Shown: positions 39,775 through 59,558 of the stretch, in pieces
Layout of the letters: every line of letters starts with the position of its first letter
How positions within the stretch are numbered: the stretch's first letter is position 1
Assembly (NCBI GenBank): GCA_002304445.1
Contig: NEVA01000011.1
Coordinates: 1-64,000 of the forward strand
DNA length: 64,000 bases
Direction: 5' to 3'
Source: Opitutia bacterium Tous-C4FEB
GTDB lineage: Bacteria > Verrucomicrobiota > Verrucomicrobiia > Opitutales > Opitutaceae
The notes under the pieces: generated by a model
What the model was told of the DNA's origin: nothing
Seen by the model: only the letters and a program-made list of their open reading frames with translations
Databases searched by the model: none
Position numbers and translations under genes: made by a program

Positions 39775-42750
39775 TCAGAACTTGAACGAACTGGTCAAGG
39801 TATACGCCCGGGGCTCGTTGAGACGGTAGACGGCGGTCGTGCCGGTGCCCGTTCCGTCCCGGCGGTCGACCGTGCGCAGCGGATACACCGTATAGGCATC
39901 GAAGAGATTGCGCACATTGAGCTGGAGCCGCCAGGAGATCCGGTTGTTGAAGAGCTTGCGCTGGTAGGTCAGCCACGCGCCGAAGAACTCGGTGGCGGGC
40001 GAGTAATAGGGCCGGTTGGGGTCAACGACATTGCCGGCACCTTCCGCGAAGCCGGTCATGATACGGCCGCGGGCATTGACGCTGCCTCCGATCGAGAAGC
40101 CGGCGAGACGGGAGTCCGAAGCGAAGGAGTAAGTCTGAATCATATTGAACGTCCAACGGGCGGTCATGAAGTCCTCAGGCTGGCTTTGGAGGGCTTTGAA
40201 GTTCCGCAGCGTGGACTCAACCATGTCCACGCGTTGGGCGACGGTGAAATTGTTGACGGTGGTGAGCGCCATCCATTCGGCATTCGCTTTCCAGATGGGA
40301 ATATACTCGGCGAGATAGCGCTGGAGATCGAGGCCGCGGCCGCTCGTGGTGCTGGCGCTGCGTTTGCTGCCGTTGACCGTGAAGCGCCACTGGGGCGTGA
40401 GATTGGCGGTGGCCGAGAATTCCCAGCCGGTCGACTTGGTGGTCGCGCTATCTTCCCAATGGTCGCCGGCGTTGATATAGGCGTACGGAAACCTCAGGTA
40501 TTTGGAATCGCCCGTGTAATCGGCGATCGCCTGCCAGATTATGTCGGTGCTGCCGAAATTTCCGGCCGACGTGTTCCAGACGGTGTCGATCTTGTCGACC
40601 GTCGCATTCTCATAGTGCGTGAGATCGATAAACAGTCGTTGGTTCAGCAGGGCGAGCTTCACGCCGTAGTCGCTTCCCCGGCCCTTGGGGTTTGGCAGGA
40701 GATCGCCATAGATGTTGCGCTGCGAGTCGTTTGGTTGGAAGTTATCGGATCGATTGTAGGTGAGACCCAACCACGGCAGGGCATGAAACACGGCGCCGCG
40801 CGTAAAGGTTCGGCCGCTACGTTCGCGTCGGCTTTGGGGGACAAACTTTCGCAGATCGTACCGGGTCGGATCGGGGTAGAGAGTGCGCTCCCTGAGGGGC
40901 GCGAAGTCGGCCGCTACGGCGTACCAGGCTTGCTGGGTATCGGTGCGCCATCCATTGGTGAGCATGAGACGACCACCCCAAAACGAGCTTTGCAGCGCAG
41001 CAGCGTACGTCTTGATATCTAAGTCGGTGCCGCCGGGACCCAGATTGTTCACGTACGCAGACGTAATGCCGCTGGGATCGGCCGGGGGCAACGGCGTGTC
41101 ACTATAGATCAAGGGATAACGTCCAAACTGGCCCTTGGGGTTCCCGACTTGGCCGGCGGCGGGATCGTAATAGTAACGATAAATAATCGTGTTCGCCCCG
41201 TTCGAGACCAAAGCGGGAACGCCCGTCGTGATCAGGGAGGTGATATTCTGGATCTGCATATTGCTGCTATATTTGCTCCGGTCGCTCTCCTCGGCGAACA
41301 CGGCGGCCCGATGACGACCGAGGTGCCGGAGCCAGCTGGAACTTCGGCGGGACAGATTCAGATCGTAGGAAGCCATCAGGCGTTTGCCCAGGCTGTCCTC
41401 CGGCGTGACAATCACCGTGGAGCGGGATTCCGTATAGAGTCGGCCGGCGTTCGGATTGGGCGTGCGGTCGGGCAGCTGCCGGTTCACGTCGACGTAGATG
41501 GTGTCGTTGACGCCCACAAAGGCGTTGACCGCAAAGATGTCGCTGACCGTGCGGTTGACGGCGCCCTCGATGAAGAGGTTCTCGGTGATCTGCTGCTCGA
41601 AAAAGACCGAGTAGGATTTGAAGTCGGTCAGCCGGTAGGATCCCGCGAGTGAGCTGGCGAACGTGGGGTAGAGAGCCGGGTTGATGAACGAGCGCTTGGC
41701 GGGATTAAAGGCGGGAAAACCGTTGCCGTAGTCGGCCAAGGGGGTTGTGGCCTGGAGTGTCCGCCACGTCAGGACGGGAATCTTGGAGCCGGCCGGCGAA
41801 AACTCCGTCGAGATCAGACCTTGGACATTGTAGACAACCGTGCCCGGGGGCCGGGACGCCCCGACGGTCGCGATCATCGGCGAGCCAGCGGCCAGCCAAG
41901 GGGAAACCGCGTCGTAGGACGGCCACGGCCGATCGGCGGGAAGTTCGAGCAGGCCCTGCTCGTAGTTGAGGCGGATCGACGTCTTTTTGAACGGTGTGAG
42001 TTGGGCGGTGACAAAGTGCCGGCGCTGATATTTTTCGCTGGGGATGCGGAAGCCGTAGGATTTCTCGTAGAGTCCGGCGTAACGCAGGGAGAGGAGATTC
42101 TTTTTGATCACCTGATTGTGATCCACCATCGCGCGGAAGCTTTCGTTGTTGTCGGTCCGCAGTTCGACCGTGGTCGCGGTGCGGTTCTTGGCGCGCTTGG
42201 TGGAGGAGACAAACGCGCCGGCGGCGTTGCCGAGGCCGAAGAGGATGGCGTTGGGGCCGCGGGTGAACGTGAGCGACTCGGAGTTATAGCGATCCTGTGG
42301 CACGTTGTTGCTGAACAAATCCTGGCCGACGACCGTGGTCGTGCCGCCGCGGGTCACATATTGCGTCGGGATGTTGATGAAGTCGTTGCCGCCGTTGTCG
42401 GCGCCGCTCACGACAAAGGCGTCGGTGTTGGGCGCGAAGGCGAGGATATCGTTGATGTTCGTGGCCCCGAGGTCGTCCAGCATCTGCTCGGTAAAGATGG
42501 TCAGGGCGGCACCGACGTCGCGCAGGTCAGTTTTCAGGCGGGTTCCGCTGAGCGTCTGGGTGGCGAGGTATCCCTTTTCACTGCTGGCATCGACCTGGAA
42601 CGGGGAGAGCACGGTCGGTGACTCGGCCGGAGGCGGGGAAGATGCGGGGGTGCCGGCCGGGCGCTGCGCGAAAAGAGGCTGCCCGGTCAGCGCAGCGGCT
42701 AGGGCCAGTTGAAGCGGAACACGGACGAGGAGGTGGGAGTGTGGTTTCAT
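39775..42750 (-). CDS. TonB-dependent receptor 2
   Basis: 991 residues. Signal peptide (LLVRVPLQLALAAALTG), a proline-rich linker, then the lineage motif TVLSPFQVDASSEKGY and plug blocks TDLRDVGAALTIFTEQML, INDILAFAPNTDAFVV and GPNAILFGLGNAAGAFVS. The barrel ends AYTLTSSFKF. Outer-membrane import of a glycan fragment is the likely job. The predicted operator TCGGAC-TC-GTCCGA (43019-43032) lies 269 bases upstream of its start. The esterase and the sulfatase scrap lie downstream on the same strand. Confidence 0.9.
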   Translation of the reverse strand: MKPHSHLLVRVPLQLALAAALTGQPLFAQRPAGTPASSPPPAESPTVLSPFQVDASSEKGYLATQTLSGTRLKTDLRDVGAALTIFTEQMLDDLGATNINDILAFAPNTDAFVVSGADNGGNDFINIPTQYVTRGGTTTVVGQDLFSNNVPQDRYNSESLTFTRGPNAILFGLGNAAGAFVSSTKRAKNRTATTVELRTDNNESFRAMVDHNQVIKKNLLSLRYAGLYEKSYGFRIPSEKYQRRHFVTAQLTPFKKTSIRLNYEQGLLELPADRPWPSYDAVSPWLAAGSPMIATVGASRPPGTVVYNVQGLISTEFSPAGSKIPVLTWRTLQATTPLADYGNGFPAFNPAKRSFINPALYPTFASSLAGSYRLTDFKSYSVFFEQQITENLFIEGAVNRTVSDIFAVNAFVGVNDTIYVDVNRQLPDRTPNPNAGRLYTESRSTVIVTPEDSLGKRLMASYDLNLSRRSSSWLRHLGRHRAAVFAEESDRSKYSSNMQIQNITSLITTGVPALVSNGANTIIYRYYYDPAAGQVGNPKGQFGRYPLIYSDTPLPPADPSGITSAYVNNLGPGGTDLDIKTYAAALQSSFWGGRLMLTNGWRTDTQQAWYAVAADFAPLRERTLYPDPTRYDLRKFVPQSRRERSGRTFTRGAVFHALPWLGLTYNRSDNFQPNDSQRNIYGDLLPNPKGRGSDYGVKLALLNQRLFIDLTHYENATVDKIDTVWNTSAGNFGSTDIIWQAIADYTGDSKYLRFPYAYINAGDHWEDSATTKSTGWEFSATANLTPQWRFTVNGSKRSASTTSGRGLDLQRYLAEYIPIWKANAEWMALTTVNNFTVAQRVDMVESTLRNFKALQSQPEDFMTARWTFNMIQTYSFASDSRLAGFSIGGSVNARGRIMTGFAEGAGNVVDPNRPYYSPATEFFGAWLTYQRKLFNNRISWRLQLNVRNLFDAYTVYPLRTVDRRDGTGTGTTAVYRLNEPRAYTLTSSFKF

Positions 42751-42792
42751 ATTTTTGGGGCTCCGATGGTCGACTCTGAATTGTTCGCCCTG

Positions 42793-42918
42793 TCATCCGC
42801 CGGGTCGCGCGGCATGGAGTTGAGGAAGATTGAAGTGCTGCTGGCTGAGATTGCCGTAGCACCCGAGATCGCACCAACGGTGTTGATCCGAGAAAACGAG
42901 AAGGAGATTTGGCGGACG
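42793..42918 (-). pseudogene. sulfatase reduced to fused N- and C-terminal ends
   Basis: The minus frame reads LLLVFSDQHRWCDLGCYGN followed directly by LSQQHFNLPQLHAARPGG and a stop. The intact sulfatase at 54578-56014 has FVFSDQHRWCDLGCYGN near its start and NRSQRHFNLPQL near its end, about 430 residues apart. This remnant is therefore a paralogue with an internal deletion of roughly 1.3 kb that removed the catalytic cysteine and everything between. Confidence 0.85.
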
Positions 42919-43018
42919 CACGAAAGGGAGAAATCCAGGGTTTGGGGCGGGACACCCTCCGGGCGGGCGCGCAGGAACTCCGTGATCCGAGACGGTGGCA
43001 TTGTCCATGGTCGGCGTA

Positions 43019-43032
43019 TCGGACTCGTCCGA
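43019..43032. promoter_or_regulatory. predicted LacI-family operator, copy 1
   Basis: TCGGAC-TC-GTCCGA: 6-base arms, 2-base centre. It has the same arms as the sites at 49175-49188 and 54355-54368. It lies between the fragments of a decayed divergent sulfatase/lacI pair and upstream of TonB-dependent receptor 2. Confidence 0.7.
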
Positions 43033-43075
43033 ATATCCGGTCTTGCAGTCGCGACCACCGTCGCAATTGGGGTCC

Positions 43076-43175
43076 GTCCTGTCGGACGACTTCGGCGCGC
43101 GTGCTTCACGTGACGCGTGCCGGCTTTCTGCGCTGGCAATCCGATCACGGCGGCGAGGCAGTGCCCATTCTCATC
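43076..43175 (+). pseudogene. fragment of a LacI-family regulator gene with a frameshift
   Basis: The plus strand encodes VLSDDFGAR, then after a 2-base deletion LHVTRAGFLRWQSDHGGEA in another frame. The intact regulator at 54303-53131 reads VMSDDFDARVLHLTRAGFLR and RWQSDHGGEAPPILI in the corresponding place (about residues 235-270). The N-terminal DNA-binding part and the C-terminus are gone. Together with the neighbouring sulfatase remnant it mirrors the intact divergent pair. Confidence 0.8.
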
Positions 43176-43302
43176 CGACCGATAACCAATAGGAAACTGG
43201 ATTTTGCGGGGGTTGGATCAGGAGGGGGTCGCCCGCGTCGCGATCGGCATCGCCCAACAGCCAAGTGTTCAGGTCATCGAAACTATCAGAAGAACCGACC
43301 GC

Positions 43303-44280
43303 CTACTTCTCCGTCTTCGCGTATTCGTCCCAGTGTTTCCGGATCATGGCCACGTCGGCCGCTTTCGATGTCACCAGATAGCGGTAACGTGAAACGTACT
43401 CCCCGTCAGGTGCGATCTTGAACGGACCTTCGACCATGGGAGAAAAGCAGAAATAAGGTTTGTTTGGATGAATCCGCACGGATTGGGGCGCACGGAAGTT
43501 TTTCGGACTGCAGAAGACGGCGGCAGACACGTCCCGGCCGTCAATCCGGCCGGAGAGGGCGACCCAGTTGGGGCGGGTGTGATTACCTTCCCAGCGGTCC
43601 TTGCCGTCGCTGGTCAGGAACTGCAGGTCGCCCGGCTTGATGCTGTGATCTTTCACTTGCTTCAGCCACTGGTAGTTGCCGCGGATCGACATGCCGCCGT
43701 AGTGATATTTGTCCAGGCTGAGGGGCTTGTCTGTGACGCACCGCTGAACGCTGACGATATCGAAGAGAAAGTGGTCCGCCGGGGTCTGATGAACGGTGAC
43801 CGTCCAGATCTCATGGAGAACGTCGACCCACTTGTCGCCGACCTTCGCCATGAATGCGTGTTTGACGCTGAAGGAGACCCTCTGCTCCTCCCTCTTCAGG
43901 CCCACCACCTCGCGAAATTCGATTCTTCCGAGGTCCGTCGCCTGGTTCCAAAAATCTACGTCCTGACCGTTGTAGCTGGCTTTCGTCCAGGCAAAGAACA
44001 GCGCGTGTTGATGGGCATGATCCTCGGGGTAGTCGCCCGTGAGTTCCTGCCCGGTCGGGGTGTAGATGGGATGAATATAGCCGCTGCGGCTGAAGTGCTT
44101 CTCAATTCCTACGGGAACAGGTCTCGCGGTCTTGACGTATTCGAGAACCGTTTTTTCGCGCTGGCTGATGCGTATGGTATCGTCGGTCTCAGTCAGGCGC
44201 AGTTCACTGCTCCGCGCCGTTATTGCAGCGACGCTCAGCGAGCAGAAGAGCGCGAGTAATTTGATGGAATATGATTTCAT
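43303..44280 (-). CDS. secreted DUF6807 (PmoA-like) protein
   Basis: 325 residues with a signal peptide (MKSYSIKLLALFCSLSVAAI). The block YIHPIYTPTGQELTGDYPED followed by HAHQHALFFAWTKASYNG is the signature of the family annotated PmoA/DUF6807, which is common in Planctomycetota and Verrucomicrobiota carbohydrate loci. Further blocks are LDKYHYGGMSIRG and HPNKPYFCFSPMV. Despite the name it is not a methane monooxygenase; its biochemical role is unknown. Base composition is less GC-rich than the housekeeping genes. No operator was found directly upstream. Confidence 0.8.
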   Translation of the reverse strand: MKSYSIKLLALFCSLSVAAITARSSELRLTETDDTIRISQREKTVLEYVKTARPVPVGIEKHFSRSGYIHPIYTPTGQELTGDYPEDHAHQHALFFAWTKASYNGQDVDFWNQATDLGRIEFREVVGLKREEQRVSFSVKHAFMAKVGDKWVDVLHEIWTVTVHQTPADHFLFDIVSVQRCVTDKPLSLDKYHYGGMSIRGNYQWLKQVKDHSIKPGDLQFLTSDGKDRWEGNHTRPNWVALSGRIDGRDVSAAVFCSPKNFRAPQSVRIHPNKPYFCFSPMVEGPFKIAPDGEYVSRYRYLVTSKAADVAMIRKHWDEYAKTEK

Positions 44281-44329
44281 GGGTGGCTTTTTCGAGTGGT
44301 TTCAGAACGTGAGTATCCTCTTCTTTATT

Positions 44330-44691
44330 GGAAGGGGAACGAAGTCGGGATGGTCGGACGGCTCCTGATCGAAAGTGATGACCACGCCCGTCGCGCTCGC
44401 GGTTGAACCGGATAGCAATCGTGCCCGCAATCAGCGCATATCGTCGACGAGGTTTGCCCGCGGCATCTCCACCGCCAAGTGATAATGGTTCGACCTGATG
44501 CACCAAGCATGCTCGTGCCAGCCTGTCCGCTCGCCTGTCTCGCCCGGGCAGCGCAAAAATCCCGCCTTCGTCGTCTCCTCGGCATACACCGCGCGCCGGT
44601 AATCTCCGCGATTGATGAGGTGATGGATCCCGCCTTCCGCGGCGAGACGCAACGTGCGCAGTATGTTGCCGCATTTTCCCGTGTCCAACAA
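44330..44691 (-). pseudogene. frameshifted RAYT (REP-associated tyrosine transposase)
   Basis: The first frame (to 44431) reads RTLRLAAEGGIHHLINRGDY followed by WHEHAWCIRSNHYHLAVEMP and NLVDDMR, then stops. The HxH-containing NHYHLAVE motif is the Y1-transposase HUH site. In the next frame the sequence continues GTIAIRFNRERDGRGHHF, matching the TFAxRFNRxRxxxGHLFQ block that normally follows. The gene is therefore broken by a frameshift and then degenerates. The catalytic Tyr region is missing. Confidence 0.8.
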
Positions 44692-44771
44692 GGCGTCAAC
44701 CCAACCGCCAAAACCTGAGCCCTTTTCCTATTCTCAATAAGTGACATATCGCGGGGCGCAGCGAGCACTGC

Positions 44772-47459
44772 CTACTTCAGGGCCTTCAGGTAGAGCACGA
44801 GCGACTCGATCTGCGACTCGCTGAGCACGCCCGCGTAGCTGGGCATCGCATATTCTCCCTCCTCGAAACCGGCGGCGACTTTGGCCGTGGGGTCGAGGAT
44901 CGCTTCGCGGATGAAGGCATCGTCGACGTTCACTTTGGCGGCTTTGCCGCCGATGAACACCGGACGGTCGGTGCGGCCGTAGAGCCCGCGCCACGGCGGG
45001 CCCAATCTGGCGGCGATGCGATTGGGTTCGTCGGCGTGGCACGCGACGCACGCGAGGAGTTGCGCGAGGCGCCGGCCTTCGTCGGCGCTCACGGGACCGG
45101 TGTCCTGCGCGGCGACGGCGGCGCGCGGCGTGAGATCGATCTCGATATTGCCGAATCCTTCGGCCGCCGGATCGAAGGGCACGAGTGCATAGGGCGTCGT
45201 GTAGGCGTTCTCCTCGAAGGCCGCGCCGGCGGCGGTGGCGAGCGACCAGCCGACGCGCAACTGCATCACGGGTGTCATCCCGGGCACCGCGACAAACACC
45301 GCGCGGCCGTCGGCCGAGAGATACGCGGCGCTCGGCGTAAGGTAATCCTGCCCGGGTATGCCGTCGGCTTTGTATTGGGGTGAGCCGTATTTGTGGGTGC
45401 GTTTGTAGCCCCAGCTCTGCAGCGAATAGCTCGCCGGGTCGCGCGCTTTCGCCGGATCGAGCGCGACCTCGAAACGCAGCAGCACGCCGCGGTCCGTCGG
45501 CACGATCTCGCGCGGGAGCGTGACGGGCGCGCCGGTGTAGCGCACGCGACCGAGGCCGGCGGCGACGTCGAGAACATTGCCCCAACCGACTATCTGGAAG
45601 CCGGCGAGGTAGAGCTGGCCGTCGGCGGGGTTGACGGACCCGTGCAGCGGCGGAAACCGAAACGCCCGCGTGACGTTCACGACACTGGCCTGCGGGCGCG
45701 GACCGCGGTCGTTGAAAAGCACGCGGAAGAGTTCGGGTTTGTTGTAGCCGATGTGGACAAGCCCGCCGTCGAGCGGGCCCAGGCGCGAGCCCTCGAGCCA
45801 GACCTGCGAGGCGGCGGAGCCGTTGACGGCGTGCGGCAGCCACGTGAGCGGCTCGGCGGGCGGCGCGGGATATACTTCCTTCGGTGCGAACGGCGGCAGG
45901 AAGCCGTAGAACTGCCGGTCGCGCACGATGTGGAGCGGCGTCGAGGGAATGTAGTGCCCTTCCTGGTCGCTCGACGTGACGAGGCCGGTGCGCGGGTGCA
46001 CGGCGATGTTCGGCTGGCGGAAACCGTAGCCGAGCACGGTGGCGTGGCGGCCGTCGGCGGAGAGGCGCAGCACGCTGCCGTTGTGCTTGCCCTGCGTCTT
46101 GGCCTGCTGGCCGCCCTTGGCGATCACGAATTCGCCGCCGGGCCCGAGGCGCAGGCTCGAGGGAAACTCACGCAGGTCGGCCGTCTGCGCGAAGGCATTG
46201 GAAAACAGAACGTGTGCGTCGGCCTCGCCGTTGTTGTCGGCATCGGGCAGGCGCCAGACGCCATTTTTATCGAAGACGAAAATCTCCCCGTCGCGCAGCG
46301 CGACGTTCATCGGCTCGTGCAGGCCCGAAGTGAAACGCCGCCAGCGCACGGTGTCACCGGTTTTGCGTGCAGCGGCGAGGCCGTGCGCAAGCCAGACGTC
46401 GCCGTCGAGCGTGACGACCACGCCCGTGCCGTCGGCGCGGAACTGCACGTCGGCCGTCCGCACGCCACGACGCCACGGATTCGGCTCGGGCAACGCGAAA
46501 TGATCGACGACGTAGGCGTCGGTGGCCGGAGAAACGTTGACGGCAGTGACGACTTCCTGCGGCCAGCGCGCGACGGTTGCGGCGGTCGGCCGCGGTGCGG
46601 CGGGGGAGGCGGCGGGTTTCGCGCCGTCGCGCGCCAGCACGAGGCCGAATGTGAGCGGCGCCGCGCGCGCGGGCACGCGCACGGTCCACACGCCGTTTTC
46701 CTGCGCAAGCTCGGCGCTGCCCGCGCGGTCGCTGCCGGGGCGAAGCGAGAGCGCGACGCCCGGCGCCGCGGTGCCGACGACGAGTCGAAGCGGCAGTGTG
46801 GACGGTGCGACTTCGAAGTTGCGCCCGATCACCGGTCCGCCCGCAGCGCCGGCATCGTCAAGGGTTAACCATTCGCTCACGGCGGCACCCGCGACGGTGT
46901 AGTCGAGCACGACGGCGCGGCCGACAAAGCGCACGGCCTCGAAGCGCCCGATTTTTTCGTCGAGCGGGCCGCGGCCGATTTCCTCGGGGCTCGGGGCGGG
47001 CTCGCGCGGATCGGCGAGCGAAACGGTCTCGCCTGTCTGCCAACCCGGATACGTGCCGGTGGCGAGCCATAGCTCGCCGTCGGGGGCGGGCAGATACGAC
47101 TGGCCGTCGGGCGTTTTGCGCGAGACATCGTGATACGAACCGGGCGCGAGCGCTTTCGGCGTCACGCCCGCACCGTGCCATACCGCGACCACCCGCAGCA
47201 GATCGGGATCGAATGCCGCCCAAAAGCCGCGGCCGAGATTCAGCACGAGCGCGCGCGGTGCGAGATTGTCGGGCAGAGCGACGCCCTGGGCTTTGCGCGC
47301 ATCGAGTGTGGAGGAGAAGAAAGGAAAATCCGGCTCCACCCACGCGGCGCGCGGCGGGCCGGTCGCCGCGTTGCGCTGGGCGGCCGACGACGACGCGGCA
47401 GCCAGCAGGCCGAGCAAAAACGCGAAACAAGCAAGGGCGGAGCGAAGAGAAAGCGGCAT
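44772..47459 (-). CDS. secreted DUF6797 protein with C-terminal cytochrome c domain
   Basis: 895 residues. ATG 47459 gives a signal peptide (MPLSLRSALACFAFLLGLLA); the frame is open far upstream, antisense to nothing useful. The N-terminal half is the DUF6797 module and the middle a six-bladed-propeller-like segment (GEIFVFDKNGVWRLPDADNN, SSDQEGHYIPSTPLHIV). The C-terminus carries one heme site, CVACH at 804-808, with a likely Met ligand near 872 (EYAMPSY). Such proteins are typical of PVC bacteria and may oxidise sugars in the periplasm; the substrate is unknown. The sulfatase lies upstream on the same strand. Confidence 0.8.
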   Translation of the reverse strand: MPLSLRSALACFAFLLGLLAAASSSAAQRNAATGPPRAAWVEPDFPFFSSTLDARKAQGVALPDNLAPRALVLNLGRGFWAAFDPDLLRVVAVWHGAGVTPKALAPGSYHDVSRKTPDGQSYLPAPDGELWLATGTYPGWQTGETVSLADPREPAPSPEEIGRGPLDEKIGRFEAVRFVGRAVVLDYTVAGAAVSEWLTLDDAGAAGGPVIGRNFEVAPSTLPLRLVVGTAAPGVALSLRPGSDRAGSAELAQENGVWTVRVPARAAPLTFGLVLARDGAKPAASPAAPRPTAATVARWPQEVVTAVNVSPATDAYVVDHFALPEPNPWRRGVRTADVQFRADGTGVVVTLDGDVWLAHGLAAARKTGDTVRWRRFTSGLHEPMNVALRDGEIFVFDKNGVWRLPDADNNGEADAHVLFSNAFAQTADLREFPSSLRLGPGGEFVIAKGGQQAKTQGKHNGSVLRLSADGRHATVLGYGFRQPNIAVHPRTGLVTSSDQEGHYIPSTPLHIVRDRQFYGFLPPFAPKEVYPAPPAEPLTWLPHAVNGSAASQVWLEGSRLGPLDGGLVHIGYNKPELFRVLFNDRGPRPQASVVNVTRAFRFPPLHGSVNPADGQLYLAGFQIVGWGNVLDVAAGLGRVRYTGAPVTLPREIVPTDRGVLLRFEVALDPAKARDPASYSLQSWGYKRTHKYGSPQYKADGIPGQDYLTPSAAYLSADGRAVFVAVPGMTPVMQLRVGWSLATAAGAAFEENAYTTPYALVPFDPAAEGFGNIEIDLTPRAAVAAQDTGPVSADEGRRLAQLLACVACHADEPNRIAARLGPPWRGLYGRTDRPVFIGGKAAKVNVDDAFIREAILDPTAKVAAGFEEGEYAMPSYAGVLSESQIESLVLYLKALK

Positions 47460-47641
47460 GGCAAGGCGGGCGGGACGCACGACCGGGACAAAAAAGACCG
47501 GAGGCAGGCAGGGTATAAATGGAAAATGACTTGGTCGGGACGGGGCGCTTTCGGCCGCAAAGCCGGGAGCACGACGGGAAATTAGTTCGTCTGCCGGTTC
47601 GGAAGGATGGTCGTCGGCCCGAGGCACAAGCGCGTTCACGG

Positions 47642-49021
47642 TCAGTAGTCGCGGAACGGACCGCGAGGCTCGGTGGCGTCCATGAGCTTTTTCCATGCCG
47701 CAAAGCGGTCCGCCAGTCGGGCGGCGATCTCCGGGTGGGAGGACGTCAGATCGCTGGTCTCGCCGATGTCTTTGGCGAGATCGAAGAGGCTGCTGTCTTT
47801 CGGCGAAGAAATCCATTTCCAGTTGTCGACGCGGGCGGCGCGTTCGCCGCGTCGTTCCCAGAACATCTCCGTGCGCGGTGACTTTTTCCGACCGCCGAGC
47901 ACCGGCAGCAGGTCGAAGCCGTCGAGCACCACGTTCTCGGGCGGCGTTGCGCCGGCAGCGGCCACGAGGGAGGGGAAGATTTCCAGAGCGGTGAGAAATT
48001 CGTTGGTGACGACGCCTGCCGGCAATCGGTTCGGCCAGCGGGCGAGGAAGGGTACGCGGAGGCCGCCCTCCCACATGGTCATTTTGGCGCCGCGCAAGGG
48101 GTGGTTGCCGCCGTTGCCGCTGCCGCCGTTGTCGGAAAGGAACAGAACAAGTGTGTCCTGGGCCAAGCCGTGCTGGTCGAGGCGGGCCAGAAGTTCCCCG
48201 ATCGCCTCGTCCATGCACGTGACGGCCGCGTAGTAGGAGGTCAGGCGCTCTTTGGGGTCCATGTCCGGATAGCGGCGGACGAACGCTTCCGGCGCCTGCA
48301 CGCCGCCTTCGAAATTGGAGGCGAAGTGCGGGGCGTTGAATGCCAGATAGAGGAAGAAGGGCTGCCGCCGATTGTCGTCCACAAAGCGCAGGGCCTCGCG
48401 CTTGAAGAGTTCGGTCGCATATGTGCCCACGTCGGCCTGCGTGCGCACGTTGCCGCGGAACATGGAGTGAATGCCATAGCGCTCGTGCGTGTAGTAATCG
48501 ATGCCGTTGTTGCCGTGCCCGTAGAAGAAATCGAAGCCGCGTTGCAACGGGAGGAAACGTTTGGCCTGGCCCATATCCCATTTGCCCACGACGCCCGTGC
48601 GGTACCCGGCGCTCTGCAGCACGTTGCCGATGGTGATTTCCTTCGGGTCGAGGCCGAGCGTCATTTCCGGCGACAAGGCATACTCTTCGGCCGTATACCG
48701 GTGTTTGTAGCTCACGAGATCGTTGCGAACGTTGTCATAGAGTCCGTTGCGCTGGGGATAGCGGCCGGTGAGAATACTGCCGCGGGAAGGGGTGCAGGCT
48801 GGCCAAGTCGCGTAAAAATTGGTCGCGCGGACACCTTCGCGCGCCAAGCGGTCGAGATGCGGGGTGAGGATCGGCTTCGTTCCGATGATCCCGAGGTCGG
48901 GGTAGCCTTGGTCGTCCGAGACGATCAGGACGATGTTGGGCGCACGGACTGCAGCGCGGGCATAGCCGAGCCCAAGGCAGGCCAGGGCGAACAGGACGGT
49001 AACGAGGCGTCGGGATTTCAA
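47642..49021 (-). CDS. secreted sulfatase (family S1 type)
   Basis: 459 residues. No ATG is available, so the TTG at 49021 is chosen because it gives a perfect signal peptide (MKSRRLVTVLFALACLGLGY, then ARA-AV); a GTG at 49066 is the alternative. Metal-binding Asp36/Asp37 are in IVSDDQGYPD. Cys76 in ACTPSRGSILTGRYP is the formylglycine site (CxPSR). FLSDNGGSGNGG supplies the later Asp/Asn. An oddity is GKWDMG (147-151), where most sulfatases have GKWHLG. A predicted LacI operator lies 154 bases upstream of the TTG. It should remove sulfate from glycans in the periplasm or outside. Confidence 0.88.
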   Translation of the reverse strand: MKSRRLVTVLFALACLGLGYARAAVRAPNIVLIVSDDQGYPDLGIIGTKPILTPHLDRLAREGVRATNFYATWPACTPSRGSILTGRYPQRNGLYDNVRNDLVSYKHRYTAEEYALSPEMTLGLDPKEITIGNVLQSAGYRTGVVGKWDMGQAKRFLPLQRGFDFFYGHGNNGIDYYTHERYGIHSMFRGNVRTQADVGTYATELFKREALRFVDDNRRQPFFLYLAFNAPHFASNFEGGVQAPEAFVRRYPDMDPKERLTSYYAAVTCMDEAIGELLARLDQHGLAQDTLVLFLSDNGGSGNGGNHPLRGAKMTMWEGGLRVPFLARWPNRLPAGVVTNEFLTALEIFPSLVAAAGATPPENVVLDGFDLLPVLGGRKKSPRTEMFWERRGERAARVDNWKWISSPKDSSLFDLAKDIGETSDLTSSHPEIAARLADRFAAWKKLMDATEPRGPFRDY

Positions 49022-49374
49022 GAGAGCGGGGTGGATTGCGAGGTTGTTGGGAGGCTGACTCAGCACCGGCCGTTTACGCCCATCGTGAGGGTTGTGCCCG
49101 GAAGATTGCACCGCACGGCGTTCGAGTGGAGTGAGTGTGATCCTCCATGCCCCGCGCAGTCCACTGCCGTGAAATCGGACACGTCCGACATTGGTCCGCC
49201 GGCAGTGTATCGACTCGTGGGGTGCAAGGGCCGCTCGAGCGGCGTCGCCATCGTGGAAGAACGAATGCGGGTCCCGGCGCGGCGTCTCCGCAGGTAGGCT
49301 GGTCTCCTCGTTTTCCTCCCTTTGTTCACTCGGGCGACTTGGAATAATAGCCAACTCCAACCATCTCTCAATCC
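49022..49374. other. intergenic region with operator, between lyase-like gene and sulfatase
   Basis: About 350 bases on the upstream side of the secreted sulfatase. It holds the palindrome at 49175-49188 and no supported gene; plus- and minus-strand open frames here lack protein-like sequence. The sulfatase therefore probably has its own promoter. Confidence 0.5.
49175..49188. promoter_or_regulatory. predicted LacI-family operator, copy 2
   Basis: TCGGAC-AC-GTCCGA. In the wider context GTGAAATCGGACACGTCCGA (49169-49188) differs at one base from the reverse complement of the site at 54355-54368 with its flank, so similarity extends beyond the arms. It lies upstream of the secreted sulfatase. 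Confidence 0.75.
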
Positions 49375-51318
49375 CTATCTAGAGGCTGGGACTAATTCTC
49401 CGTTCGTAAAATCGAGCACCTTACTGCGGGAACCTTTGCTGATCCTTACGATACCGCCGTCGTAATCGGCGGTGAGGAAAGGACTGTCAAAAACTCTTTT
49501 GGGTGCATAGTCCACCGCTTCGCCGTTTATGGTGGGCGTTCTTTTGTAATTTGTGTCCAGAGTGAGTTTGTCGCCATAGATCGTGGTGTATTCGAGAACC
49601 GATCCGAGGAAACGGAGTTTGCATGCCTGAACCTTCGCCTTGAAGTTCTCGAAGGTGCCGACATCACGCTTGGCCATCACCTCTAGGATCACCGGCGCGT
49701 ATTCATCGGTGGGGACTATGATATGAGCCGGAGGCGTAGAGAAGGACTCGCCTGTTTCTTTCTTCGCCCCGAATTCCCCCTCCGCAATCGTGAATTCTCC
49801 ACGTGCCACGCGCACCGCTGCAAACGCTCCCGGAGCTTCGACGAAGACAATCCGATCCTCGACCACGGGCCTGCTCAATCCGGTCTTCGACATCCATACC
49901 ATCATCTCGGCGGCATCCTCATGCGTCTCCAGTTTCTGCGTGAGCAGACTGCCTTTGCTCTGCACGGACCAAAACTGATTGAAGGCGACGCGGTTGTTTG
50001 CGGGACGCGGAACGGGAACGATTCGCGGGTCGCCGTCACCCTTGAAAATCGCGCCTTGCCAGCGAGCCTGGCTGCTGATCCTGACCCAATCGTCAACGGG
50101 CCTCGCTTCCACCATTGGAGTCCCGAGTATGAACGCCGGGTCACAGTAGCTATAGCGCAGAATACCTCCCCCGTCGGTCCGCAACCTGTTGGGCGGTTGA
50201 TCCGGCCGGTCCATATGTGGAAACGAGTATCCCTGGGTGCCCAAGCCCTGGACACGCTGCCGGATTTCGTAACTGCCGCGGCCTTCCGGGTCGCGTGCAA
50301 TGTCGGCCACCACCGCCGGGGGGCGGTACGCACTAAGCAGTGCGCCAATATCATGCCCGCTGAGCCGCGGTTGGTTCCCAATTGCGAAATATACCCACGC
50401 CAAGACCGCATTTCCACCGGAGCGGGCCTGTGTGTAGGCGTTGTTGCCCAGGATCCTTGATCGACCGCCGCCCATGTGCCCCATGATTTGCTCCTCGGCC
50501 CAGTAGGCGAAGTACAAATCCATGAACATCCCCACTGCCTGCTTCACGCGTTCGTTGCCGTAGTCGTAGAAATTGAAAAAGCCCTTTATAAGCGTCGCGT
50601 TGTAGCCGTCGCTCCGCATTTCGACGCACAGGCCTTTCTTCGCGCGTTCCCGGCAATAGACCACGATGTACTCATTCCATGCGTCATATAACTCAGATAA
50701 CGTGGACCCATCTGAAAACCTGCGGTTCCGATACTGCGGCAGTTCTTTCGCGTACTTGGAGAAATGCCAGTGACACGTAAAATCCATGGCATGGTGGTTC
50801 TCGGAACTGTAGAGGTGCCAGGTGCCGGAAGCCTTGTGGTCCGCCTTCTCGCGCCATGAGCATTTCGACGTATACAGCCACATCGGCTCCAGCACCTTCG
50901 CTTCCGTCTCCCTGCCGATCCTGCCCGGATTCACACCGCCGTTCGGCCCATACATTTCAAGCAGGCGCAATACGATCTCCGCATGCCAGTGGAAACTGTC
51001 CCGATCGGTTATCGCCAGTGGATTGTCCAGATAGTACTGGGCGTTTTCGACCAGTGCTGCATTCGCTTCGTCGATCTGCTCATTCAAGTAGAAGCAACGC
51101 GCGGCAAAGGCCATGATCGAGAACGAATACCCGCGCACATAGGGACCGCGTTCCTTGCTGAGAGGTGGCTGCTTGGCTGCGCGCAGCAGTGGCTTGCCTG
51201 CTTCGGCTTTGAAGATCGCGTCGACTCTCTGTTCAAATCCGGCCAGCACGGCTTTAGGCGCTAGAGCCAGGCAATCTGCTGTAAGAGCAAGAAACAGGGC
51301 AGTGAGATATTTCTTCAT
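49375..51318 (-). CDS. large secreted protein, probable alpha/alpha-toroid carbohydrate enzyme
   Basis: 647 residues with a signal peptide (MKKYLTALFLALTADCLALA). The N-terminal 380 residues are helical with aromatic- and His-rich blocks (RDSFHWHAEIVLRLLEMYG, TWHLYSSENHHAMDFTCHWH, MGHMGGGRSRILGNNAYTQ). The C-terminal 250 are beta-rich. This order matches heparinase- or alginate-lyase-like proteins with an alpha/alpha toroid plus beta-sandwich, but no named family motif was recognised. Base composition is less GC-rich than the core genes, suggesting transfer. Its place between the sulfatase and the sugar symporter supports a role in glycan breakdown. Confidence 0.55.
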   Translation of the reverse strand: MKKYLTALFLALTADCLALAPKAVLAGFEQRVDAIFKAEAGKPLLRAAKQPPLSKERGPYVRGYSFSIMAFAARCFYLNEQIDEANAALVENAQYYLDNPLAITDRDSFHWHAEIVLRLLEMYGPNGGVNPGRIGRETEAKVLEPMWLYTSKCSWREKADHKASGTWHLYSSENHHAMDFTCHWHFSKYAKELPQYRNRRFSDGSTLSELYDAWNEYIVVYCRERAKKGLCVEMRSDGYNATLIKGFFNFYDYGNERVKQAVGMFMDLYFAYWAEEQIMGHMGGGRSRILGNNAYTQARSGGNAVLAWVYFAIGNQPRLSGHDIGALLSAYRPPAVVADIARDPEGRGSYEIRQRVQGLGTQGYSFPHMDRPDQPPNRLRTDGGGILRYSYCDPAFILGTPMVEARPVDDWVRISSQARWQGAIFKGDGDPRIVPVPRPANNRVAFNQFWSVQSKGSLLTQKLETHEDAAEMMVWMSKTGLSRPVVEDRIVFVEAPGAFAAVRVARGEFTIAEGEFGAKKETGESFSTPPAHIIVPTDEYAPVILEVMAKRDVGTFENFKAKVQACKLRFLGSVLEYTTIYGDKLTLDTNYKRTPTINGEAVDYAPKRVFDSPFLTADYDGGIVRISKGSRSKVLDFTNGELVPASR

Positions 51319-51661
51319 GGTCGATATTCCGTTTTGAAAATTGAAGCGGTCGAATCAGGTGACTTCAAAGACCGACTGTTGCTTCGGCGCCGACCCCATG
51401 CAGGCGCCCGCGGCGGTGGTTTCGCCGGAAGCCGCAGTCGTTGCGAACAGCCCGACGTGAGCGGAGATCCCAGCTGCTACGCCGAGCACACCGTCGGTGC
51501 GGGTAAATGGTGCGAGGGATCACGATGGTCGATGGGATTAGTTCGCGGTCGGTCTGCGGGACATCAGGCTGGGGTTTCTACAATTAGGGGGCGATGGCTA
51601 CGCTTTCAGTTTTGCTCTCGGTGCGATGTGGAGGATGGCACGGTCGCGAGGATGCGCGGCG
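51319..51661. other. intergenic region upstream of the toroid-protein gene
   Basis: 343 bases between the symporter stop and the start of the secreted toroid protein, both on the minus strand. The promoter of the latter should be here. I found no copy of the TCGGAC-NN-GTCCGA palindrome and no convincing ORF. Confidence 0.4.
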
Positions 51662-53134
51662 TCATTCGACCGGGCGGCTTTTCGCACCAGTCTCGACTGC
51701 CGCCGTCTGCCGCCGCTCGGCCAACTCGCGGCTGATCTGCGCCATCCGCGCCCGGCTCAGCGGATAGCCGCGCACGAGCACGGCGGCCAGAATCATGCAG
51801 GCAACGGGCACGGCGACGAGGGCGGCGCGAAGCGCCAGCAACGTGCGTTCGTCCTGCACCCCGCCACGATCGGCCCTAAATCCGCTCAGGTCCAGCAGAA
51901 GCCCGGCAAATATGAAGGCCGCCGACACTCCCACTTTCTGCGAGAACGAAACGAACGCTCCCAGCAGCGCGTCACGCCGCCCGCCGGTGGTCAATTCCTC
52001 GTACTCGCACGTATCCGCGATCATCGATTGGAGCATCAGCCAAAATCCCAGCAATAGCGGCTGCGTGAGCACGCGGTAGCCCACCTGCCAGTACGGGTGC
52101 GCGGGGGTGAACAGCCACCAGGTGCTGACACTGAAGACGCCGTTCAGGAGCAGGGTGAAGAACAAGACCGTTTTCTTGTCGAAGCGGGCCCCCAGCCACG
52201 TCCAGGCAAAGACCGACAACAGTGTCATCACGTAGCCGATAGTCACGCCGCTGCTCGACACCACCGCCGCCGAACGCAAATCGCCCTCGTAGACATAATA
52301 GAAATTTACGTAGTCGGCGAGCATGCCCGAGGCGGTGGCGGCGGTGAGAAACAGCAGGGCCAGGCCGACCAGCCGGAGAAACGGCCGGTTGCCGAACGCC
52401 GCCTTGAGCTCCACCCTGACGGGCGGCCGTGGACGCGGGGCCAGGGGACGCTTCTCGGGCACGAGCAATCCAGGAATGATGCCGCAGGCGACAATCAGGA
52501 CGCCGGTCGCCGCTCCGACATAGTAGACACCTTCCATCGTGTTGTCGAAGATCGGAAGCTGGGTAGCGGTGAACAGCCAGCTCACGATGGTGTTTCCGAC
52601 CATGTTGAACGCCAGCCGCCAAGCCATGACCCGCGTGCGGTCGTCATAGCTTGTCGCCAGCTCGTATCCTAGCGCATGATACGGCACGGTGAACACCGTG
52701 AACGCCGAATAAAACAGCAGCAGCATCGCGGTGAGATACGCGAAGAGCGCGCCGGAGCCGAGGCCGCGCGGCACGACAAACAAGGCGAAGAACGTGATGC
52801 CCATAGCCAGCGCGCCGATCACAATAAATGGCCGCCGCCGGCCGTGGCGACTTGTGCTTCGATCCGAGATCGTGCCCATCGCCGGATCGGTCACGGCATC
52901 CCAAACGCGGCAGATTGCCTTCGCCAGACCGATCAGGGTCGGGCTCAGCCCGAGCGTGATATTGAAGATCGGGTTCACCAGCGTGACCGGGCCGTGAAAA
53001 CCGACCATGTCGGTAATGCCGCCGATTCCGAAGGCGAGCTTGTGCCGCCAGCCCACGCGTGCCTCCGCGACCCGGCCAGCTTCGTCGGGCGGGATCACTC
53101 CCGTCGTTGCGCCTTCTGCAGCATTCATTTTCAC
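51662..53134 (-). CDS. GPH-family cation:sugar symporter (MFS, MelB-like)
   Basis: 490 residues with twelve hydrophobic segments. The cation-site and loop signature DAVTDPAMGTISDRSTSRHG followed by RRRPFIVIGA is that of glycoside-pentoside-hexuronide symporters. Later landmarks are YELATSYDDRTRVMAWR and DTCEYEELTTGGRRDALLG. It probably takes up mono- or oligosaccharides at the inner membrane. The GTG at 53134 overlaps the lacI stop as GTGA and has an AGGGAG element at proper distance, which favours it over the ATG two codons later. It is cotranscribed with the regulator. Confidence 0.9.
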   Translation of the reverse strand: MKMNAAEGATTGVIPPDEAGRVAEARVGWRHKLAFGIGGITDMVGFHGPVTLVNPIFNITLGLSPTLIGLAKAICRVWDAVTDPAMGTISDRSTSRHGRRRPFIVIGALAMGITFFALFVVPRGLGSGALFAYLTAMLLLFYSAFTVFTVPYHALGYELATSYDDRTRVMAWRLAFNMVGNTIVSWLFTATQLPIFDNTMEGVYYVGAATGVLIVACGIIPGLLVPEKRPLAPRPRPPVRVELKAAFGNRPFLRLVGLALLFLTAATASGMLADYVNFYYVYEGDLRSAAVVSSSGVTIGYVMTLLSVFAWTWLGARFDKKTVLFFTLLLNGVFSVSTWWLFTPAHPYWQVGYRVLTQPLLLGFWLMLQSMIADTCEYEELTTGGRRDALLGAFVSFSQKVGVSAAFIFAGLLLDLSGFRADRGGVQDERTLLALRAALVAVPVACMILAAVLVRGYPLSRARMAQISRELAERRQTAAVETGAKSRPVE

Positions 53135-54303
53135 ACCAGCGCTCCCTTTGTCGCCACCGCGGGACCGGCGACCGGTGCGGCTGCCGCCGCAGGCTCATGA
53201 TAGGGGCCCAGCACTAGGACCGTCTGGCGAATCAACGGTATTCCCTGCTCGTTCCGGTAAAGCTTCGCGGCAAGGAGGTCAACCGCGCTGCGAGCCAACG
53301 TGCGCAGGGAGATGTCGAAGCCACCCAACTCCGGCCGACCAAGCATCCGCATCGTCGTGGTCACGACCACATCCTGCGGCACGCGCCGCCCTAGGGCGGA
53401 CAGGGCCGGCACCACGTCGACTGCCGGGGCGATGATACAATCCGGCGAATAGCGCCGGAACCAGCCCGCCAACGGAGCGGGGTCGCTGCCCGCCAGAATG
53501 AGGATGGGCGGTGCTTCGCCACCGTGATCGGACTGCCAGCGCAGAAAACCGGCGCGCGTCAAATGGAGCACGCGCGCATCGAAGTCGTCCGACATTACCA
53601 GGCCCATCCGCCGGCGTCCGTGATGCCACATGCGCCGGCAAACCTCGACGATCGCCTCGTGGTGATCGTAGCCGACCCGGTCGAATCGAGGTGAGGCGAC
53701 GCTGAAGCCGATGCAGACGCTGGCAAACTCCTCCCACCCCATGTCGAGATCGATCTGGGGAAGCGTGTGCGGCGCGATCACGAAACCGCGAATCCCGCGA
53801 TTGCGAATGACATTGCGCAGCCGGGCAGACGGCATGCCGGCCCGCGCATACTCGATGAGGTCGAGGCCGAACCCCAGCTCGTGCGCCCGTTCGCGCGCCC
53901 CCACGTAGCCGTCGCGGCCCGGGCAATCCGCCTCCAGCAACGCCGGTCGGGAAACATCCGAAAGATAGCCGAGCGTCGTTCCCCGCGGGCGGCCGCTCCG
54001 CGCCTGGCGCGTGAGCATCATGTTAGCGATGACAAGCGGATTGGGGCGATAATCGAGCGCTTCCGCCATCGCGCGCACCCTGGCGATGGTGGCGGCGGCA
54101 TGGCGCGACTCCCCGCGGAGCGCGGCCGCGACGGTCGACTTCGAGAGCCCAAGCCGCGCGCCAATCGCGCGCACGCTCAGCGTTGCCGGCCGCACTCCCA
54201 AGGCGCTCGCCGAAACCGAATTGATTTCCCGCGCGCTCTCGCGCTCCGTCCCAAGCTTCCTCCCGGAGGAGGACGCGCGCCGGCGAGTCGGGGTGGAGCT
54301 CAT
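53131..54303 (-). CDS. LacI-family transcriptional regulator
   Basis: 390 residues. A Ser/Arg-rich leader of about 40 residues precedes the helix-turn-helix and hinge helix: SVRAIGARLGLSKSTVAAAL (about 43-62) then ARVRAMAEALDYRPNPL. The rest is a periplasmic-binding-protein-like sensor domain (YVGARERAHELGFGLDLIE, RGIRGFVIAPHTLP, HLTRAGFLRWQSDHGG). It is divergent from a sulfatase and upstream of the symporter. A TCGGAC-GT-GTCCGA palindrome 52 bases before its start is its likely operator, so autoregulation is expected. Confidence 0.92.
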   Translation of the reverse strand: MSSTPTRRRASSSGRKLGTERESAREINSVSASALGVRPATLSVRAIGARLGLSKSTVAAALRGESRHAAATIARVRAMAEALDYRPNPLVIANMMLTRQARSGRPRGTTLGYLSDVSRPALLEADCPGRDGYVGARERAHELGFGLDLIEYARAGMPSARLRNVIRNRGIRGFVIAPHTLPQIDLDMGWEEFASVCIGFSVASPRFDRVGYDHHEAIVEVCRRMWHHGRRRMGLVMSDDFDARVLHLTRAGFLRWQSDHGGEAPPILILAGSDPAPLAGWFRRYSPDCIIAPAVDVVPALSALGRRVPQDVVVTTTMRMLGRPELGGFDISLRTLARSAVDLLAAKLYRNEQGIPLIRQTVLVLGPYHEPAAAAAPVAGPAVATKGALV

Positions 54304-54354
54304 TTAAAGATTCGTGTGGAGATAATCCGGCGGGGCAATGCCAAGCTGGCAAGT

Positions 54355-54368
54355 TCGGACGTGTCCGA
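54355..54368. promoter_or_regulatory. predicted LacI-family operator, copy 3
   Basis: TCGGAC-GT-GTCCGA in the 274-base divergent region between the lacI-symporter pair and the sulfatase. It lies 52 bases from the lacI start and 210 from the sulfatase start. Its reverse complement with flank, GTGGAATCGGACACGTCCGA, nearly equals the copy at 49169-49188. Confidence 0.8.
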
Positions 54369-54577
54369 TTCCACGGCAATCGACTCGGTCCGGATGACGA
54401 CCCAGTTTGGCCTTCTCCCCGGATCCTAGGGCGGTTTCAATCAAGGCCGTCTTATTCCGCCGCAGTCGTTCCCCTTCCGCCTCTCCCCCGCCCCGCTCGA
54501 TTCGTGACGCGGGAGAGGCGCAAGAAGATTGCGGAGGATGCGCCGGAAAAACTTGATGCCGTCCCTCCCTGCCTCTC

Positions 54578-56014
54578 GTGCGCGCTCCCAATATACTCTT
54601 CGTATTTTCCGACCAGCACCGCTGGTGCGACCTTGGTTGCTATGGCAATGCCGACGTCCACACGCCGCACTTCGACGCCTTTGCCGCTGCGGGTGCGCGA
54701 ATCGGCCAATGCGTCTCGAACTCGCCGCTATGCGTCCCGGCCCGCGGCACGCTGCTTACCGGCCAGTATCCACTTCGGCACGGGGCCGTGTCCAACGATC
54801 TGCCGATCCGGGGCGACGTGGTCAGCATCGCGGATGTGCTGGGCGCCGCCGGGTACCGCACCGGGTACATCGGCAAGTGGCACCTGGCCGGTGTTCCGCG
54901 CGAACAGGTCGTTCCCGTCGGCCGCGGGCGCCTGGGGTTTCAGGAATGGAAGGTCCGCAACTGCAGCCACACATACTTTAAAACTCATTACCACGACGAG
55001 ATAAACCGCCGGCATGACGTCCCCGGCTATGAACCGGTCGCCCAGACCGATCTCGCGATCGATTTCATCCGGCGGCATCGTTCAGTCCCATGGGGGTTGG
55101 TTCTTTCGTGGGGTCCGCCCCACGATCCCTACGGGGAGGCGCCGGAACCCCAGCTTGCCCGCTATCGGAATCCTCCGCTGCGCGTGCGGCGAAATGTGCC
55201 CGAATTGATTCACGATCGGCGTGACCGGACTCTGCAGCGCGGGGAAGCGCTGCAGAACCTACGCGGATATTATGCTCATATTAGTGCGCTCGACGAGCAG
55301 TTAGGCCGGTTGCTGGCGGCGCTCGATGCGACCGGCCAGGCCGAAAACACTGTCGTCGTGTACACTAGCGACCACGGCGACATGCTGGGCAGCCACGGGC
55401 TCACCAACAAGCAGCTGCCCTACGAAGAGGCGGTGCGCGTCCCGCTCCTCGTCCGCTGGCCAGGCCGAATCCCGGCGCATGTCAGCGATGCCTTGATCGG
55501 CCTGGTCGATCTTCCAGTCTCCCTCATGGGCCTACTCGGGCTGGCGTTCCCCGCACCGCGGGACGGGCTCGATTTGCACCGGGTGTTTTGCCAGCCCGGC
55601 GCTGCCGGCCGCGAGGCGTGCTATCTGTTCGACTACATCCCCGCGCACCAGGCCTACGATCGCGGCGGCGAAGCCTGGCGCGGCGTGCGCACTCCCCGGT
55701 TCACGTTTGCCCGGAAGGGCAACGGCGCCGACTGGCTGCTCTTCGACAACGACGCTGATCCCTGGCAGCTCGAAAATCGGATCGGCCGGCCCGAATTCGC
55801 TCCGCTCCAGCGTGAGCTCGGGCGGCACATCGACGCCTTTATCGCCGCGCATGATCGCCTGCTTCCGGGCGACGATTTCATCCGGCACTTCGACCTGCGC
55901 GAGGCGTGGAACCGCAGCCAGCGGCACTTTAATCTCCCCCAGCTCGCGGACCCGCCGTTTCTCTCGAAAGCAACGCCCGACGGTTCGCTGAGCGAAGCAG
56001 GCCTCATACCCTAA
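54578..56014 (+). CDS. sulfatase without signal peptide, predicted cytoplasmic
   Basis: 478 residues from a GTG start (54578). It begins at once with the sulfatase core NILFVFSDQHRWCDLGCYGN and has no export signal. The formylglycine site is Cys52 in LCVPARGTLLTGQYP. GKWHLAG (99-105) and TSDHGDMLGSHG are intact. The second Asp of the usual DD pair is Gln13, a common variant in the SDQH subfamily. Placed divergent from lacI and the GPH symporter, it probably desulfates an imported oligosaccharide. The receptor gene follows 56 bases later on the same strand. Confidence 0.88.
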   Translation: MRAPNILFVFSDQHRWCDLGCYGNADVHTPHFDAFAAAGARIGQCVSNSPLCVPARGTLLTGQYPLRHGAVSNDLPIRGDVVSIADVLGAAGYRTGYIGKWHLAGVPREQVVPVGRGRLGFQEWKVRNCSHTYFKTHYHDEINRRHDVPGYEPVAQTDLAIDFIRRHRSVPWGLVLSWGPPHDPYGEAPEPQLARYRNPPLRVRRNVPELIHDRRDRTLQRGEALQNLRGYYAHISALDEQLGRLLAALDATGQAENTVVVYTSDHGDMLGSHGLTNKQLPYEEAVRVPLLVRWPGRIPAHVSDALIGLVDLPVSLMGLLGLAFPAPRDGLDLHRVFCQPGAAGREACYLFDYIPAHQAYDRGGEAWRGVRTPRFTFARKGNGADWLLFDNDADPWQLENRIGRPEFAPLQRELGRHIDAFIAAHDRLLPGDDFIRHFDLREAWNRSQRHFNLPQLADPPFLSKATPDGSLSEAGLIP

Positions 56015-56070
56015 CGACTCTATCAGCAAGCAACAGAAGATCAATATAGCTCCTTGAAACCGCGCATCCC

Positions 56071-59454: not shown

Positions 59455-59468
59455 GCCACGATGCTGCG

Positions 59469-59558
59469 ATGCCCGACGCGTTTGGCGAACTGCACGACAA
59501 CGATGCCGCCGAACTGCTGAAAAGCACCCCCGGCATGGCCCTCCACTACGCGGTCTAG
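59469..59558 (+). other. short coding-like fragment, unknown
   Basis: A 29-residue frame reading MPDAFGELHDNDAAELLKST then GMALHYAV and TAG. It has protein-like composition but no recognised family. It lies between the receptor stop and an IS66 scrap and is probably debris. Confidence 0.2.

Follow-up and report, generated by a model that had tools for sequence, protein, structure and literature searches.

The palindromes and their gene cluster

The stretch of DNA analysed here, hereafter the window, comprises the first 64,000 nucleotides of contig NEVA01000011.1 of Opitutia bacterium Tous-C4FEB and contains a cluster in which genes for sulfatases, TonB-dependent receptors, a sugar symporter and a LacI-type regulator are arranged around three copies of the palindrome TCGGAC-NN-GTCCGA. 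Judged from the sequence, this palindrome very probably serves as operator for the LacI-type protein whose gene lies at 53131-54303 and which would repress three promoter regions of one carbohydrate cluster. An exact scan of the window for TCGGACNNGTCCGA recovered the three copies where a previous sequence-only reading had placed them, and nowhere else:

43019..43032, no strand: site 1 (TCGGACTCGTCCGA), operator-like palindrome, exact match, before TonB receptor 2
49175..49188, no strand: site 2 (TCGGACACGTCCGA), putative operator palindrome, exact, before the secreted sulfatase; 14/14 bases in the related locus L072
54355..54368, no strand: site 3 (TCGGACGTGTCCGA), putative operator palindrome, exact, in the lacI/sulfatase 2 divergent region; 14/14 bases in L072

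The genes among which the sites lie are the following:

39775..42750, minus strand: TonB-dependent receptor 2 (profile search)
43303..44280, minus strand: DUF6807 protein (profile search)
44772..47640, minus strand: DUF6797 protein with a C-terminal CxxCH cytochrome-like domain (start within this range not fixed)
47642..49021, minus strand: secreted S1-type sulfatase, CTPSR motif (TTG taken as start)
49375..51318, minus strand: lyase-like protein whose model combines an alpha-helical toroid with a beta sandwich (fold resemblance to glycosaminoglycan and alginate lyases)
51662..53134, minus strand: GPH/MFS_2 sugar-cation symporter (4-bp overlap with lacI)
53131..54303, minus strand: lacI-type regulator gene, 390 amino acids (Peripla_BP_3, weak LacI helix-turn-helix match, LacI/PurR fold, 94% identical relative in L072)
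54578..56014, plus strand: sulfatase 2, CVPAR motif, no evident signal peptide
56071..59454, plus strand: TonB-dependent receptor 1, 3' of sulfatase 2

The two central bases are TC, AC and GT in the three copies, the centre of site 1 thus reading ACTCGT. Site 1 lies 269 bp before TonB receptor 2; site 2 lies about 150 bp before the secreted sulfatase if the gene starts at TTG 49021, a start chosen because the resulting N-terminus is signal-peptide-like; and site 3 is 52 bp from lacI and 210 bp from sulfatase 2, upstream of both, which bears out the earlier observation that one copy adjoins a LacI-type gene. The flank that copies 2 and 3 had been said to share turns out to be longer than first described, as 49158-49188 and 54385-54355 are alike at 90% over 31 bp. 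That all three sites are intergenic holds when the genes are read individually but not under a mechanical rule for open reading frames, or ORFs (at least 150 amino acids, GC content at third codon positions above 0.7), by which sites 1 and 3 fall outside ORFs and site 2 falls in the 5' extension of ORF 47642-49360; we read this extension as non-coding because, compared with the related locus L072, it carries indels and is only 68% identical.

Conservation and ancestry of the sites

A pattern scan of a collection of species genomes returned one close relative of the LacI-type protein, 94% identical over residues 1-370, in the metagenome-assembled genome Opitutia bacterium Tous-C1TDCM (class Opitutia), whose locus, L072, is 90.7% identical in DNA to window positions 46080-59473. 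Sites 2 and 3 are retained there base for base at syntenic places, in spacers whose remaining sequence is 0.680 and 0.696 identical, and that 4.1-Mb genome contains no further exact copy. Site 3 stands in a 16-bp identical run, second in its spacer to an unrelated run of 17 bp, and site 2 stands in the longest identical run of its spacer:

49156..49189, minus strand: 34-bp block identical in both genomes, containing site 2

Beside site 2 this block extends into TTTCACGGCAGTGGACTGC (window 49156-49174), which holds a small palindrome, GCAGTGGACTGC, possibly the site of a second regulator or a promoter element.

Site 1 appears to have a different history, traced by two fragments that occupy part of the spacer preceding TonB receptor 2 (window 42850-43174) and are inverted with respect to the intact genes:

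43080..43174, plus strand: remnant of a lacI paralog (87% identity to 53594-53498, 2-bp gap)
42850..42930, minus strand: relic of the sulfatase 2 5' end, 75% identical to 54649-54569

Site 1 is situated between these relics in the right order and agrees with site 3 at 15 of 16 bases, while the flanks are much deleted or diverged. That TonB receptor 2 might be a recent copy of receptor 1 was considered and rejected, the two proteins being 25-27% identical. Given the order of the relics and the low identity of the receptors, the operator was probably carried along with a duplicated lacI/sulfatase control region, since decayed, and so came to be joined to TonB receptor 2. Site 1 is for this reason not an independent third occurrence, and it is the least certain of the three putative operators; its position suggests a route by which a receptor gene could acquire an operator, namely from a duplicated control region of the neighbourhood that has fallen into decay.

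Of the alternatives to a shared operator, the one that survives best is that the sites are alike merely because promoter DNA was duplicated, with at least one copy, site 1 above all, devoid of function. The setting of site 1 between duplicated pieces of lacI and sulfatase 2, its differing TC centre, its want of a DNA-level counterpart in the relative and the 31 bp that copies 2 and 3 have in common all speak for such an origin, whereas the preservation of 15 of 16 bases amid eroded flanks speaks against it, and the fact that sites 2 and 3 are fully identical in the two genomes although their spacers have diverged makes the explanation unlikely for these two. We therefore regard it as a minority possibility that deserves to be kept in mind, chiefly for site 1.

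The LacI-type protein and the sites of its relatives

The product of 53131-54303 matches the sensor domain PF13377 at 35.4 bits (cut-off 26.5), and its helix-turn-helix matches PF00356 with E=1.6e-4 and 21.8 bits, under the curated threshold of 27; this same segment aligns with the helix-turn-helix of at least 35 homologues, one of which, L029, scores 43.3 bits against PF00356, above the cut-off. The structural model of the protein (predicted local distance difference test, pLDDT, 80) has LacI, CcpA and PurR chains as its best Foldseek matches, with E of about 1e-14. In our own alignment the recognition helix carries K15 and S16, and residue 54 is Asn; the residue numbers 15, 16, 20, 51 and 54 follow our alignment to GalR. 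As in the LacI/GalR family, a palindrome is found near the regulator's own gene, namely site 3, a putative operator conserved in L072. The canonical operator class, in which a central CG is read by hinge leucine 54, is represented neither by the window sites nor by the protein.

Genomes of the family, 200 in all, were searched with the window LacI, at most nine candidates being scored per genome, and the sample was assembled from the best matches, the loci of the same genus and L072. It comprised 119 LacI loci, of which 38 came from the searches, 80 were fetched (further matches taken roughly in listed order, several being passed over by hand) and one was the window's own; L009 came without an upstream region, leaving 118 loci in 83 clusters. 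A loose first look at one genome, G005, gave 182 LacI-like candidates (nine scored) in 7.4 Mb, a count that hints at a striking LacI expansion.

Among the candidates scored, relatives outside the pair formed by the window and L072 are at most 39% identical, and ten other genomes of the same genus hold no LacI closer than 35%. The most identical homologues outside the pair are L005 (39%) and L007 (35%), with L006 between them by E-value. L005 and L007 belong to another genus and lie beside alpha-L-rhamnosidase genes; both carry K15 and S16, and both have before lacI a conserved block with TGGACACGTCCA, which includes the same ten-base core as the window, GGACACGTCC.

AC-core palindromes are also enriched in the sample at large. 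In the upstream regions (300 bp each, 35.4 kb in total), perfect 6+6 palindromes with AC and GT flanking the spacer occur nine times with a spacer of one base and ten times with a spacer of two, the window and L072 supplying two of the latter, and twice, once and once with spacers of 0, 3 and 4. The control, 184.5 kb of family DNA drawn from other loci, gene bodies and downstream regions and hence more coding than the LacI upstream regions, yields four and five for the spacers of one and two, so that jointly 19 stand against 9 (odds ratio 11; p=1.3e-9 with every region counted and no correction for relatedness). The two-base AC core had been fixed beforehand by the window sites; the one-base numbers are optimistic because that class was first noticed in the data and then tested. 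Patterns of the form TCnnAC-N-GTnnGA, with palindromic nn, occur seven times in four clusters and their NN counterparts six times in five clusters, with 0.05 expected for each.

The bases of these sites, moreover, follow the protein. When residues 15/16 were compared with bases -5/-4 across 21 clusters represented by one gene each, pairs with the same residues had like bases in 9 of 21 cases as against 10 of 189 for pairs with different residues (permutation p=0.0002), even though some of the sites compared will be chance ones. Lys-Ser goes with GG (four of five genes) or GA, His-Thr with TT or TG, and Arg-Thr with TG in three of six genes, while L093 (I15 A16 R20) pairs with G-T-A, as GalR does. 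Lys-Ser at 15/16 goes with half-site GG around a central CG in Escherichia coli TreR, a pairing on which a literature search returned no hit. Hinge residue 51, in turn, goes with spacing: Val is found in eight clusters with a two-base spacer and two with a one-base spacer, and Ala in eight clusters, all with one base (33 genes in 21 clusters; 18 clusters have Val or Ala, two have Leu and one was unread). This link may in part reflect the split of a single clade.

A further instance comes from G040, the genome of L029 (K15 S16), where TCGAACACGTTCGA occurs twice; of the genome's five matches to TCNNACACGTNNGA, these two alone are fully palindromic. One copy lies just before a sulfatase gene (PF00884) and also overlaps the opening codons of a divergent TonB receptor as the mechanical ORF delimits it, the true start of that receptor not being fixed; the other separates lacI from an MFS_2 symporter, and a GH1 gene follows downstream. 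The locus (L182, 1505-9409) is an independent sulfatase-lacI-symporter-GH1 cluster with the TonB receptor on the far side of the sulfatase site, and its layout resembles that of the window.

These comparisons bear on a second alternative, whereby a regulator encoded elsewhere binds the palindromes and lacI is merely one of its targets. LacI binding is after all a prediction from sequence, the Pfam helix-turn-helix match is weak, and many related lacI genes have no AC-core palindrome upstream. Against a foreign regulator stand the recurrence of the core upstream of lacI in L005 and L007, the most identical homologues, which belong to another genus and have rhamnosidase neighbours instead, the tracking of operator bases by LacI helix residues across the 21 clusters, and the restriction of exact copies to the cluster in both genomes that have this LacI. 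On balance such a regulator appears improbable.

The predicted regulon and known LacI systems

Several observations weigh against the operator reading and have to be set beside the evidence above. At the locus itself, the sites have something other than the usual CG at their centre; sites 1 and 2 stand farther from start codons than LacI sites mostly do; and a scan of 42600-54700 placed no convincing sigma-70 promoter at the sites (four promoter-like matches versus 2.6 expected). The ORF rule by which the one-mismatch copies fall inside ORFs places site 2 inside one as well; the likeness of copies 2 and 3 is partly one of common descent because of their 31 common base pairs; and site 1 with the TonB receptor 2 region has no full DNA-level counterpart in the Tous-C1TDCM assembly (short matches and a lacI fragment only), the L072 contig stopping before that region and a diverged receptor being possible in that genome. 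Among the relatives, the upstream regions of L006, second by E-value among the candidates scored, and of L008 have no AC-core palindrome; footprinting of nine LacI genes of SRTTVSEAL type from the same genus gave no clear shared palindrome; and a loose rule assigns a site to 29 of the 118 LacI genes (7.7 expected by chance), so that most show none. Genome-wide, TCNNACACGTNNGA is barely enriched (335 versus 280 for the control, 150 genomes), and its one-base form TCNNACAGTNNGA gives a picture that is mixed by eye, many genomes having more matches to the control than to the pattern and some, such as G013 and G089, the reverse; the grammar is therefore clear only near lacI genes, and the loose genome-wide scan was rejected as proof. 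The exact motif, furthermore, is present in 47 of the 200 family genomes, the window's own included, and G083 has six exact copies with no LacI match at 1e-20. The latter genome looked at first like a counter-case, and its copies were traced to 9-bp repeats, TCCGACNNG / TCGGACNNG, which are scattered through the genome and in or beside which they lie; the exact motif can thus arise without such a regulator. The repeat stretches of G083 are:

L192, 2848-2930
L193, 2855-3060
L194, 2897-2920
L195, 2651-2674

How far the count of three departs from chance depends on what is asked. The sequence-only reading had called it far more than chance, which is right for this motif alone, with no copy in any of 100 shuffles of the window, and weak once the search is allowed to look elsewhere, given that some 6+6 palindrome (spacer 0-10) reaches three copies or more in 43 of 100 dinucleotide shuffles and that three other arm/spacer combinations reach three copies in the real window; the count alone does not settle the case. 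All three exact copies in the window's own genome (3,760,465 bases in 39 contigs, 96% complete) lie in this cluster, within 11 kb, against none for a reversed-pattern control, and the ten other genomes of the same genus in the sample have none; the six further places with one mismatch all lie inside apparent ORFs, and at up to two mismatches there are 185 places versus 110 for the reversed control, a caveat on the rarity of the motif. Chance, or simple repeats in a GC-rich genome, is nevertheless a very remote explanation, because sites 2 and 3 are conserved between genomes and their core recurs before the lacI genes of L005 and L007, which contradicts it for these two sites, and no tandem repeat was seen around the sites in the sequence read.

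What has been computed, that is, the sites and their linkage to lacI, the conservation of sites 2 and 3, the core in another genus, the enrichment upstream of LacI genes and the helix/base covariation, supports the proposal that a LacI regulator shares one operator among sulfatase, receptor and symporter genes. Besides what has been said of site 1 and of the count, the proposal is amended in that the units under coordinated control are not dispersed: the sites stand at adjacent promoter regions of a single cluster of about 20 kb. In the scheme that we infer, in which binding, repression, operon structure, effector and substrate are all predictions, a LacI dimer would bind the palindrome, with K15 and S16 reading the GG of each half-site and the hinge permitting a two-base, non-CG centre, ACACGT. 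Site 3 would cover lacI, the symporter and the lyase-like gene on one side and sulfatase 2 and TonB receptor 1 on the other; site 2 would cover the genes for the secreted sulfatase and the DUF6797 and DUF6807 proteins; and site 1 would cover TonB receptor 2. By analogy with the family, the repressor would let go of the DNA on binding a sugar taken up by the cell, perhaps an oligosaccharide that is desulfated or unsaturated.

The two sulfatases and the lyase-like fold make a sulfated glycan containing uronate a fair guess at the substrate of the cluster. Both sulfatases have a PF00884 domain and the C-x-P-x-R motif of S1 formylglycine sulfatases (CTPSR and CVPAR); the solved structures nearest in sequence are carrageenan S1 sulfatases for the secreted enzyme and a chondroitin/dermatan sulfate 4-O-endosulfatase for sulfatase 2. 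The product of 49375-51318 has no Pfam or NCBIfam match, and a sequence search for a solved relative gave nothing credible. Its model (pLDDT 61) forms a toroid and a beta sandwich, and the Foldseek matches listed range in E from 7e-6 to 1e-3, the best being dermatan sulfate epimerase (7.4e-6) and others chondroitinase, GAGase VII and alginate lyases; structure comparison gave Z 12.2 for GAGase VII and Z 11.7 for chondroitinase, at a root-mean-square deviation above 10. The exact operator is not present in the stretches around homologues of this protein in G140 and G054. Directly downstream of the secreted sulfatase gene lies the DUF6797 gene with its cytochrome-like CxxCH end, and just past the cluster an ORF at 59863-60519 has a HicA-like C-terminal match (PF07927).

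Taken together, the interpretation as a small local LacI regulon whose operator centre is unlike the family norm is supported, with the corrections given above, and some related putative repressors of this bacterial lineage, to judge from their upstream regions, use the same unusual site layout. Whether there is an Opitutia LacI group with an operator grammar of its own, combining the usual helix positions with a shifted centre, ACACGT or ACAGT, in which V51 would go with two bases and A51 with one, is in our estimation evenly balanced. If true, operators would become predictable in part of a bacterial group in which LacI-type genes abound, helix residues being tied to half-site bases and the hinge residue to operator spacing; such a grammar would keep many LacI paralogs apart within one genome, and the window regulon would be one readable instance of it.

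A literature search, covering its sources in part, found no description of operator sites for LacI-type genes of this bacterial group. The nearest systems are the local LacI-family sugar regulons; of the 1303 regulators surveyed there, 1251 are given palindromes of even length and 1173 a CG pair in the middle (Ravcheev et al. 2014, PMC4052901), and the main text of that survey nowhere uses the word 'Verrucomicrobia'. As in those regulons, the window has LacI beside transporter and degradative genes, palindromes upstream and one of these before its own gene, and site 3, 52 bp before lacI, lies within their common range of -140 to -30; unlike them, it has the centre ACACGT (ACTCGT at site 1), with ACAGT in sister regulators. 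In the LacI recognition code worked out for the TVSR group, hinge residue 54 reads the central CG (Camas et al. 2010, PMC2978694). Those regulators for which sites were seen in the present sample depart from that code in being mostly outside TVSR and in their centre, the window protein having Asn 54; they resemble it in that residues 15/16 correspond to bases -5/-4 and residue 20 to base -6.

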